A stretch of DNA of 64,000 nt from an uncultured SAR86 cluster bacterium (GTDB lineage Bacteria; Pseudomonadota; Gammaproteobacteria; Magnimaribacterales; D2472). Positions 48,431 through 52,096 of this stretch are shown here, piece by piece; the first letter of the stretch is position 1; each line of letters opens with the position of its first letter. The position numbers and the translations under genes are program-made. The stretch covers positions 387,785 through 451,784 of the forward strand of contig CAJIYN010000002.1 in assembly GCA_905181645.1 (NCBI GenBank). The letters are read 5' to 3'. Below the pieces are notes generated by a model. The model had not been told where the DNA came from and searched no databases. It saw nothing but the letters and a program-made list of their open reading frames with translations.

Positions 48431-48486
48431 TTAGCTACTCCCACTCAATAGTTGCAGATTTACAGAGCCTTATAGACGAAGGGCTA
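48431..48486. repeat. att-like repeat C1, distal end of the guaA-linked array
   Basis: Contains TTAGCTACT - CCCACTC - AATAGTTGC, read on the minus strand as GCAACT ATT GAG TGG GAG TAG, i.e. the last codons of a guaA gene (ATIEWE-stop). It continues CAGATTTACAGAGCC, TTATAGACGAAGGGCTAC, with an imperfect AGCC/GGCT inverted pair. The same tract recurs at 50513-50553 with two mismatches, and its first 22 bases recur at 49190. I interpret it as the outer attachment site (attR-like) where the original guaA 3' end was displaced. Confidence 0.75.
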
Positions 48487-48504
48487 CAAGCACGAAAATA
48501 AAAG

Positions 48505-48560
48505 CGTGTAACTTTCGTGTAACTCTTACCTTCTATTTCTTGTTCTGCCCATGTGTAACT
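48505..48560. repeat. Arm-like direct repeats of distal cassette (CGTGTAACT)
   Basis: CGTGTAACT occurs at 48505-48513 and 48516-48524, exactly 11 bp apart, and TGTGTAACT at 48552-48560. The first lies 19 bp from repeat C1. The spacing of one helical turn, and the same layout with a different word next to C2, suggest binding sites for a recombinase or excisionase. Confidence 0.5.
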
Positions 48561-48565
48561 TCATT

Positions 48566-49194
48566 TCAACTCTGTGTTTCGCACCTTAATGCATTACTGG
48601 TGTTACTTAATGCTGTTGGATGAACCCACCATATCCACATCAGGTTCAATAGTTAGACATTCACAGACTAAGATACAGCGGTAATCACTGCAATGGTTCC
48701 ACCCATCATATTGCCAAGTGTCTTCCTATTCTTTCTTTTCCGATGGCTGTTTTGTTCTTATGACTCTTAAAATCACCGTAACCCAAAGTAATAGATAAAA
48801 ATCCGAAAACCAAAAGCACGATATATTGCGTATTACTATTCAAGAAATAGATTGCAGCTAATACCCACATTCCTATTCCTGAAAAAATCATTAAACAAAT
48901 AGCAATCCAATCCAAAATAGTTGCAACTCCTTTTCTATTTCTTGCAAAGCGCATTCCTGCAAAAGCCAAATAGAAAGAAAAGATAGCTATAAGAAACAAA
49001 AAGATATTACTGCTGATAATTGACATTGGAATAGCTGTTAAGAAGATAGTAGCCATACCCCAGAAATATGTTCTACCTGAAAGCACATGGAGTTTTTTAC
49101 CTTTCTCAGATGAAACTGCCAGAGCAGCACAAAGCAGAGCAATTGTTCCAGCTAGGATATGTATTGGTAATAGAATTTGTATTTTCATTCCCAC
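48566..49194 (-). CDS. DUF2306-like membrane protein, cargo of guaA-linked unit (frameshift near C-terminus)
   Basis: The main frame has five hydrophobic segments: IQILLPIHILAGTIALLCAALAV, SGRTYFWGMATIFLTAIPMSI, NIFLFLIAIFSFYLAFAGMRFA, LDWIAICLMIFSGIGMWVLAAIYFL and YIVLLVFGFLSITLGYGD. HILAGTIAL and HxxxGRxYFWGM fit DUF2306-type proteins. After a break near 48712 it may continue NMMGGTIAVITAV and end at about 48566. The start is GTG 49194 or ATG 49188, both inside the guaA-like repeat C2: the repeat's GAGTGGGAATG supplies the start codon. No own promoter is evident, so expression would rely on guaBA read-through. Confidence 0.68.
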
Positions 49195-49238
49195 TCAATA
49201 GTTGCAGATTTCGAACCCCTATAAACAAAGGGATACAG
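49181..49238. repeat. att-like repeat C2, internal
   Basis: ATTTTCATT - CCCACTC - AATAGTTGC followed by AGATTTCGAACCCCTATAAAC and AAAGGGATACAG. The first 22 bp (CCCACTCAATAGTTGCAGATTT) are identical to C1. The following part differs in sequence but keeps the spacing and the GGG/CCC inverted pair (CCCCT...AAGGG), which suggests a conserved recognition structure. Its left edge overlaps the start codon of the DUF2306-like gene. Confidence 0.72.
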
Positions 49239-49253
49239 AGGTGCAAAAAAGTA

Positions 49254-49336
49254 GTTTGTCATAAGTTTGTCACTACATTTCTTTGTTTTCAATCTCATAT
49301 CCCTCATTTTAACCCATTTTGTGACAAGGTTTGTCA
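49254..49336. repeat. Arm-like direct repeats of proximal cassette (GTTTGTCA)
   Basis: GTTTGTCA occurs at 49254-49261 and 49265-49272, again exactly 11 bp apart, and at 49329-49336, with an inverted GTGACAA at 49321. The first copy lies 16 bp from C2. The remaining 110 bp up to the DUF418 gene stop shows no gene. The layout copies that beside C1 but uses a different word, as expected if each unit had its own recombinase. Confidence 0.5.
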
Positions 49337-49448
49337 GGAAGTAAACAAGGTTTTTCCCACTTTGAACCTATAAACCGAAAGGATAACTATCATTTTGGTA
49401 TGAAGACTAAATAAAAATGAGACCCATTTGTTCTACAGAACAAATATA

Positions 49449-50499
49449 TTAACCAGTTAATTTTCGCATTAGTGATTCAAATATTCCTCGACTAAACCAT
49501 CGCGACCAAAAAAATGCATATATAGTTCCTAAAATACAAAATATTAGTGCAGCAAAGAACGCTTGTGATGAAGTTTGGCTGCCAGTCAGTCCAAGAGCAT
49601 CAACAAACCCTAAACCGACAACGATATGAAGGATGTATAAAGTAAGTGTTTGAGTCCCAGCAGGAGAGATTAAATGATAAACGTTACTATCTTTAAATCT
49701 CTCGGATGCCATTAGACAAAGACCAATAACAAGAGAAGCTGCGCCAGTAGCCGCTAAAACATAAAGTGGCATTGGTGGCATCGAATCAGTCATAACCAAA
49801 AACTGAAGTTCCGAATCAATAGGGATTAAATAGCTTGAGAGTATAAAACTCATAACTTCTGCAAATAGAATGGCAGTCAACCCCCATGCAATCATCTTAA
49901 CCTGGACTTGTCTTTCTCTTAATGAAACGCGACTCAAAAGAATGCCAAACAAGAAAAATCCTAACCACGGTAAAATTGGATGGAATCCATTAAAAAAAAG
50001 ATTGCGGATGAATCCGTCAATTGTCCAGAATCCAGAATAGGTAAGTTCTTCAAAATTCCAACCTGCTTCGTAGTCAATGGATAAAATCATACAAAAATAA
50101 ACTACATTGAGAAGACCTATAACCCCAATCAACATTCGATTACTTAATGGGAGTAACAAAACACCAAAGAAGAAGTAGAAGGCATAGTAATGCAAAATAT
50201 CTCCCTCGAAAATAGACATATTTAAAAGACCTAGAATCAGTAAGAATATTGCTCTCTTTATAATGATGTTTACTGTCTGACTCTCTCTCTTAAAACTAGA
50301 TAGTCCACCCAATACCTGCGAGAACTACAAAGGTAGCAGAAGCACGACCCTGTAATTGCCCTATAAGTTCATTAAAGAATCCCCCATTGCTTTGAACTCC
50401 ATATGACATGGCAACATCAAAATTAACAATAACCATACCTATAAAAGCAAAGTATCGAGCAATATCTAAACCAATTAATCGAGTGCTCATAAGATTCAT
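49449..50499 (-). CDS. DUF418-like membrane protein, cargo of guaA-linked unit (one frameshift)
   Basis: The N-terminal ORF reads STRLIGLDIARYFAFIGMVIVNFDVAMSYG with GRASATFVVLAGIGWTI. After a break near 50300 the second ORF continues with eight hydrophobic segments, PWLGFFLFGILLSR, and a C-terminal PAGTQTLTLYILHIVVGLGF followed by FWSRWFSRGIFESLMRKLTG, the YeiB/DUF418 signature. About 350 residues, normal length. The family is related to acyltransferase-3-like integral membrane proteins. ATG at 50499 lies only 14 nt from the left edge of repeat C3, in the same direction as guaA, so it can be transcribed from the guaBA operon. Confidence 0.8.
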
Positions 50500-50505
50500 T
50501 TTATT

Positions 50506-50553
50506 ACCGATCAATAGTCGCAGATTTACAGAGCCTTATAGACAAAGGGCTAC
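50506..50553. repeat. att-like repeat C3, next to guaA
   Basis: ACCGATC - AATAGTCGC followed by AGATTTACAGAGCC and TTATAGACAAAGGGCTAC. The tract from AATAGT to GGGCTAC matches C1 at all but two positions. The overlap word is degenerate (ACCGATC rather than CCCACTC), so this site may be inactive. Only about 15 bp separate it from the guaA boundary site. Confidence 0.68.
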
Positions 50554-50561
50554 TGCTATTT

Positions 50562-50586
50562 GCAACTATTCCCACTCAATAGTGGC
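50562..50586. repeat. Core-type att site at the guaA 3' end (attL-like)
   Basis: GCAACTATT - CCCACTC - AATAGTGGC: two 9-bp inverted arms with one mismatch around a 7-bp overlap. The left arm is outside guaA; the overlap and right arm encode the last GuaA residues (ATIEWE). This is the standard architecture of tyrosine-recombinase targets. Joining the outer arms of this site and C1 would regenerate a perfect guaA end with its stop codon, and the two inner arms GCAACTATT and AATAGTTGC are exact inverted repeats. Confidence 0.75.
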
Positions 50587-52096
50587 TGGAGGTTTGCTGG
50601 AAATATCGTAAACCACCCTACTCACATCCTCTATCTCATTAACAATTCTGTTTGAAACATGTTCTAAAAAATCATATGGAAGATGAGCCCATCTAGCTGT
50701 CATGAAATCAACGGTTTCCACTGCTCTTAATGCAATGACTTCAGCGTAGCGTCTTTCGTCACCTACTACACCGACAGATTTAACGGGCAAGGTAGACAGC
50801 GAAAGCTTGGCTAACTTTGTCATATAAATCGGCTTTAATAAGCTCTTGTATGAAAATATGTAGTCTGCTTCTTGAAGGACTGCTGTTTTCTCTTTGGTTA
50901 CTTCACCAAGAATTCTGACACCTAAACCAGGACCAGGAAAAGGATGGCGATAAAGCATCTCAGGAGATAACCCTAATGATTTTCCAATTTTTCTAACCTC
51001 ATCTTTAAAAAGATCTCTAAGAGGTTCTACTAAATCCATTTTCATTTCCTCTGGCAGTCCACCAACATTGTGATGAGACTTAATAACCCTCGCTTCTTTT
51101 GATTCAGATCCAGATGATTCTATAACATCAGGATAGATAGTTCCTTGAGCTAAAAAATGTACGTCTTTAATTTTTATAGCCTCAGCATCAAAGACATCAA
51201 TAAAGGTTCTTCCAATAATCTTGCGCTTCTGTTCAGGATCTTCAACGCCTTTTAAGTGACGTAAAAAAGCTTCTTCGCTGTCAGACTTAATAACATTAAG
51301 GTTCATATTCTCTTTAAAGGTTTGCATGACTTCAACTGCCTCACCTTTTCTTAACAAACCATTATCAACAAAGACACATACCAACTTCTTTCCGATAGCT
51401 TGATGTAATAAAGCTGCGGTAACTGATGAATCCACCCCGCCAGATAAACCTAATAAGACTTTATTGTCACCAACTTGTTGTTTTATCTCTTCAATTCTTT
51501 GGCTAATAAGGTCATCCATCTTCCAGTCGTTGCGAGCGTTACAAACTTTAAAAATAAAGTTTTCTAAAATCACTTTTCCAGACTCTGTATGGGTAACTTC
51601 AGGATGAAATTGCAATGCAAAAATAGGCTTAGAGTTATGTTGCATAGCAGCTATAGGGGCTGATGCTGTCGATGCTACTAAGGTGAAATCATCTGGTATA
51701 TCTTGAACCTGATCTCCGTGACTCATCCAAACATTTAATGTTGTATCTAAATCTGAAAATAAAAAAGTTTTTGTTTCAATCAATTAAAGTTTTACCAAAC
51801 TCTCTTTGATTAGATATTTCAACCTTACCACCCAATTGATGTACAATTAGTTGCATGCCGTAACATATTCCAAGAATTGGTATCTTTAATTCAAATATTT
51901 TTTGATCAATTTTAGGTGTGCGAGATTTGTGAACACTAGCAGGTCCTCCAGAAAAAATAATTCCTGAAGGTAAGTTCACTTTAATTTTACTTATAAGATT
52001 TCTATTACTTACAATTTCACAGTATACACCAGCTTCTCTAACTCTTCTTGCTATCAGCTGGGTAACCTGTGAACCAAAATCAACTATGTAGATCAA
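50566..52096 (-). CDS. guaA: GMP synthase, glutamine-hydrolysing (one frameshift)
   Basis: Amidates XMP to GMP. The N-terminal glutamine amidotransferase begins [21 protein letters not shown] and has the nucleophile motif GICYGMQL. A break near 51780 separates it from [11 protein letters not shown]. The ATP pyrophosphatase has [17 protein letters not shown] and the C-terminal domain ends PPATIEWE, the usual GuaA terminus. About 510 residues. The start is TTG at 52096 or nearby, after AGAGG. The last 8 codons form the right part of a recombinase core site shared with downstream repeats. GuaB lies upstream on the same strand. Confidence 0.92.

Follow-up and report, generated by a model that had tools for sequence, protein, structure and literature searches.

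Two pairs of short words, each repeated at 11 bp downstream of guaA in a SAR86 genome, are probably arm-type protein-binding sites in the attachment modules of integrase-less cassettes at guaA, served by trans-acting integrases that would differ in arm word and share the core. We analysed a 64-kb stretch of DNA (the window) from this genome (G000, 1.3 Mb), together with guaA-downstream DNA from 75 SAR86 relatives. In the mechanism that we propose from these comparisons, a tyrosine integrase supplied in trans would recombine the shared core, ACTATTGAGTGGGA, and its N-terminal domain would read the 11-bp-spaced word beside that core. Each word would mark modules for another integrase specificity, with one core for all.

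Copies of the guaA 3' end and word pairs in the window

guaA, identified by Pfam, lies on the minus strand of the window and ends at position 50566. Its 3'-end core, ACTATTGAGTGGGA on the minus strand (50570-50583), is the presumed attB overlap, and the same core also ends guaA in the fetched SAR86 loci. It shares GAGTGGGA with the core of GIsul2 (PMC9376610). Past guaA we observed three more copies of the 3' end, C3, C2 and C1. C2 (49189-49202) and C1 (48439-48452) are on the minus strand, within exact 22-23 bp repeats that include the guaA 3' end (48439-48461 and 49189-49211). C3 (50505-50518) is decayed and belongs to a minus-strand relic (50505-50569) in which only the inner portion of an A-type right module is left, its arms lost, and which matches the A-type right module beside C1.

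These copies delimit two minus-strand cassettes. The cassette from C3 to C2 (49203-50504) carries a DUF418/acyltransferase gene, and the compact cassette from C2 to C1 (48453-49188) has an ORF (48706-49188) that begins at the core with an ATGA stop/start overlap. guaA is split by a frame change (50566-51783 and 51776-52096), as is the acyltransferase gene (49449-50312 and about 50296-50499), which is intact at 350 aa in the congener G004; both frame changes are probably assembly indel errors. Second guaA C-terminal coding ends, often decayed, occur downstream of guaA at L142, L143, L144 and L141 (G042, G029, G090 and G104).

A sequence-only reading of the window had placed CGTGTAACT at 48505 and 48516 beside C1 and GTTTGTCA at 49254 and 49265 beside C2, and we found both pairs; the full repeat of the second is the 9-mer AGTTTGTCA at 49253 and 49264. 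A scan of all 64 kb returned CGTGTAACT and AGTTTGTCA as the sole non-simple 9-mers repeated at 11 bp. Read on the minus strand, the putative A arm sites are an outer copy of AGTTACACG (48516-48524) and an inner copy 11 bp away (48505-48513), and the putative B arm sites are an outer copy of TGACAAACT (49264-49272) and an inner copy 11 bp away (49253-49261). Both pairs lie on the same side of their cores, as that reading had claimed; its distance of 16-19 bp was counted from a longer repeat, and measurement from the 14-bp core puts the start of the inner copies at 59-61 bp. The third copies that it had listed farther out are present (48552, with one mismatch, and 49329) but not conserved: the A-type third copy occurs in the window and the congener G004 only, and the B-type third copy is missing in G088. 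The words are different, but calling them unrelated was slightly too strong, as a T(T/G)ACA kernel is common to several words of the family.

Geometry of the word pairs across SAR86 genomes

The comparison set comprised 76 loci, window included, from genomes that are mostly MAGs and single-cell assemblies; genera in our counts are anonymous genome groups. In a strict search, an extra core copy was defined as ACTATTGAGTGGGA followed by a stop codon, with variation like that of guaA allowed in the core. We observed 42 such copies past guaA in 29 of the 76 loci. A 9-mer repeat (at least 8 of 9 positions) at exactly 11 bp accompanied 28 of these 42 copies, compared to ~1% of control positions, and none of the 42 right ends had a repeat at 9, 10 or 12 bp. 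Two short words in a single window, as first seen, might have been chance repeats next to a duplicated guaA end; these counts and the single exact spacing refute that idea, to which we give next to no credence. The pairs start 60-77 bp from the core in the SAR86 arrays, and the cassettes between guaA-tail copies measure about 0.4-3 kb.

Visual grouping and a one-mismatch rule sorted the repeats into at least ten words (AGTTACACG, TGACAAACT, ACTTGTAAA, AGTTACAAA, AAGTTACAA, AGTTACTAC, TGTGACACA, ATGTTGTAA, TTATACAAA and TACAAATTA). Aligning the guaA-downstream regions of other genomes, a check proposed in the sequence-only reading, revealed that this geometry recurs within SAR86 in at least ten types that differ in their word. 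Type H (TTTGACAAA) is without an exact 11-bp pair at the right end; its word is present at both cassette ends. The proposal that the pairs are arm sites is partly supported, in that they form part of attachment modules at the 3' end of guaA, and its two-recombinase part is interpretive. Across 370 genomes of the class, the exact SAR86 core occurred in more than one copy only in SAR86, a count to be read with the codon choice of guaA in other clades, which often differs and may hide arrays.

The words might also have been equally dense elsewhere in intergenic DNA. We observed that they are nearly absent outside the arrays: AGTTACA-N4-AGTTACA had 17 matches in 107 genomes, 16 of them inside guaA arrays and all 16 in guaA sense. 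Every match to TGACACAAATGTGACACA and TGACAAACTTATGACAAA was likewise inside guaA arrays, with one orientation kept.

Pho boxes are 11-bp direct repeats of TGTCA, and the pairs could in principle be transcription-factor operators, such as PhoB boxes, that control the cassette genes. The B word matched the Pho-box consensus at 15 of 18 positions and the F word at 14 of 18 (99th percentile of controls, 13), and other TGACA repeats at 11 bp outside the SAR86 arrays include Pho-box-like sites. However, words C, D, Dp, E, G, H, J and K scored 10-12, which is control level, and A scored 13 of 18; the distance is fixed to the core and not to a gene start, and the words occur at both cassette ends. 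We consider PhoB-like control very improbable. Elsewhere in SAR86, TGACACA repeats at 11 bp (L314:7297, L315:105 and L316:6174) separate the gene of a TetR-type regulator from that of a PiT-type transporter and are probably Pho boxes.

Cassette ends and right modules

Right modules are discrete units. In types A, C, Dp, F, G and H, high identity extended from the core as far as the outer arm, past which it fell to about 0.3-0.4, the level of unrelated DNA. Both minus-strand modules of the window consist of arms, an inverted-repeat region and the core: the A-type right module (48453-48547) is conserved across four genera to just past the outer arm, and the B-type right module (49203-49337) is conserved with G088, which belongs to another genus and has unrelated DNA upstream. 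In several compact cassettes the ORF starts 14-25 bp from the core start, at times with an overlap between it and the guaA-type stop codon, and 71-134 bp separate its end from the next core. Many modules have an imperfect inverted repeat (AAACCC...GGGTTT) between arms and core, as in the window at 48453-48490 and 49203-49245, which may be a guaA terminator or a protein site. We did not retain a hairpin function for this region; RNA folding barely exceeded that of shuffled sequences (mean z −0.7 vs −0.15).

The word co-varies with the cassette. The right-end word recurred at the left end of its own cassette in 15 of 35 cases (permutation mean 5.6, maximum 13 in 5000). In two-ended cassettes, of types A, D, F, G and H, putative arm sites flank the core on both sides and are distinct from the core sites. 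Left-end words stood at fixed offsets, such as +42/+53/+92/+104 in type A (L132), +54/+65/+103/+115 in type D (L174) and +32 and +92 in type F. The left modules of types F and H (L146, L153, L154, L163 and L200) end in a conserved TTG-started leader (MKVISSWH...), which is followed by the cargo gene.

The main rival to integrase arm sites leaves the remaining picture unchanged and takes the 11-bp pairs to be operators of the att sites for an excisionase (RDF/Xis/Apl-like). The direct repeats to which RDFs bind are arranged head to tail with a spacing of one helix turn; the 186 att site has five of them for Apl, 10-11 bp apart (PMC7498355). However, in complete cassettes a single word flanks the core on the left and on the right, a better fit to integrase arm sites, and no RDF gene was recognised in the arrays, which were not searched systematically for one. 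RDF sites usually lie on one side, as in lambda. We regard the excisionase reading as unlikely, though the least so of the rivals. The words are, we infer, bound by an integrase and not by its excisionase; the integrase would act in trans, and several specificities would exist side by side.

Insertion and transfer between species

Array-free genomes correspond to empty sites: their DNA right after guaA aligns from base 1 with the DNA past the last core of many arrays. Cassette identity was 99.8% in one species comparison where guaA was 80% identical, and 96.1% in another where guaA was 78% identical. A 470-bp segment was 99.1-99.8% identical in four genera, compared to 70-75% for guaA. As judged by these identities, cassettes have been transferred recently between species. 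After this 470-bp segment, G039 and G047 have a C-type module, G074 has an H-type module, and G008 and G013 have none. Co-inheritance of cargo and module is therefore not the rule in every case; simple element insertion does not explain one cargo gene with different right modules. A 160-aa gene behind guaA (L135, L136, L197, L169 and L170) has a C-type, an H-type or no right module, and its DNA is 99% identical in four genera and 95-96% identical in L169.

Among the 35 cassettes that have a pair at the right end, 20 showed no recognisable left arms; these include the two window cassettes, which have right arms only. The present mobility of such cassettes is therefore in doubt. The arrays could be fossils, that is, old insertions with decayed, immobile sites, and the decayed core C3, the one-armed window cassettes and the arrays without an integrase are all consistent with this. 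Against it stand the near-identical cassettes across species and genera whose guaA is 70-80% identical, and the exact words and cores in many genomes, and we consider a fossil origin improbable.

Search for the recombinase

We did not detect an integrase catalytic domain in the guaA-downstream DNA of the 76 loci (phmmer, up to 16 kb), nor an integrase-bearing neighbour within the same reach. Genome-wide in SAR86, PF00589 matches beyond two per genome were not at guaA; the two phage-integrase-family matches in most genomes were taken as XerC and XerD. In IMG/VR, exact arm patterns gave unrelated matches only, and the exact guaA core gave no SAR86 attP. The preferred reading, with trans-acting integrases that share one core, is weakened by the failure to find an integrase or attP-bearing helper, by the one-armed cassettes, by cargo that occurs with different right modules and by the missing exact right-end pair of type H.

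Several candidates were set aside. L242 and L246 (IMG/VR) have 11-bp pairs near a core, but in other settings; L243 and L250, also core matches in IMG/VR, look like a match within coding sequence. In G005, the 3.5-kb contig with a DUF6538 integrase contained no guaA core. The phmmer matches to the L084 query, which was in a wrong frame, look like IMPDH/GMP-reductase ORFs. The only integrase relatives in the arrays were two stand-alone proteins with DUF6538, the N-terminal domain of some integrases. Such proteins (~150-300 aa) occur at about one per genome in ~45 SAR86 genomes, with two beside guaA (L259-L286, L196:1788-2243 and L199). The L196 protein has a C-terminal hydrophobic stretch.

Comparison with known systems

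GIsul2 inserts at the guaA 3' end with the core GAGTGGGA, and experiments have shown that its integrase moves both GIsul2 and the integrase-less CR2-sul2 unit (PMC9376610). The SAR86 arrays also lie at the guaA 3' end with a duplicated GAGTGGGA core, and CR2-sul2 is likewise integrase-less and bounded by cores. In contrast, GIsul2 encodes its own integrase, whereas the SAR86 array elements are without a guaA-specific tyrosine integrase; the SAR86 cassettes differ further in their small size and number of arm types. The guaA-adjacent Pseudomonas integrases that we examined were of one HDLRRT type, which we take to be P4-like, and no 11-bp pair was found within 300 bp of the core at these Pseudomonas loci.

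Tandem islands at Dehalococcoides ssrA have integration modules in 16 cases and lack them in 15, and use a serine recombinase (PMC3146451). Like these islands and the ICESt1-related CIMEs, the SAR86 cassettes are tandem and att-flanked at one gene; they contain no recombination genes, as CIMEs do not, and some Dehalococcoides islands also lack integration genes. A CIME would stem by deletion from an adjacent ICE or IME and move with it; the SAR86 DNA covered, up to 16 kb, contained no integrase-bearing neighbour. Integration modules are present in about half of the Dehalococcoides islands and in none of the SAR86 arrays, and the SAR86 cassettes are near gene size with different arm words on one core. 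Taken with the arrays in which no integrase domain was found, the GIsul2 and Dehalococcoides precedents suggest trans-acting tyrosine integrases with differing arm specificity.

As in integrons, the cassettes are arranged in arrays, and in each a compact ORF precedes a recombination module of 70-130 bp that contains an imperfect inverted repeat. However, the attC signature RYYYAAC...GTTRRRY was found in 0 of 47 modules, and the arrays have no integrase catalytic domain that could indicate an intI/attI neighbour. Unlike integron cassettes, those of SAR86 have the guaA end as core and paired 11-bp words, and some of them bear a module at either end. Tycheposons and small marine satellites are small mobile cargo islands in streamlined ocean bacteria, as the SAR86 cassettes are; tycheposons use a tRNA gene site, whereas the SAR86 cassettes use a protein-gene site and no self-encoded recombinase was found. 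In a search of the open-access literature, no title or abstract described SAR86 guaA arrays.

It is conceivable, and we offer this tentatively, that SAR86 has a gene-cassette system like integrons but made from phage-type attachment modules. Near gene-sized cassettes would gain interchangeable right modules of 65-135 bp, stack behind guaA, with some start codons at the guaA stop, and cross genera via several trans-acting recombinases that read different words.

Cassette cargo

SAR86 bacteria are among the commonest uncultured ocean bacteria, and how their streamlined genomes gain genes is poorly known. If our reading is true, one hotspot that takes defence, surface-modifying and metabolic genes via small integrase-less cassettes would be a concrete route of gene gain. 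The at least ten arm words on one core would also form a natural series for how integrase arm specificity evolves at a fixed target. A cassette of G062 carries an EcoRI-type methylase and a GmrSD/HNH type II restriction enzyme, and one of G052 carries a PDC-S02 defence candidate. Further cargo includes DUF3800, acyltransferases, MAPEG and an FkbM methyltransferase, among others. The restriction-modification pair and the PDC-S02 candidate are located at L163:13285-15452 and L146:15136-16068, respectively.
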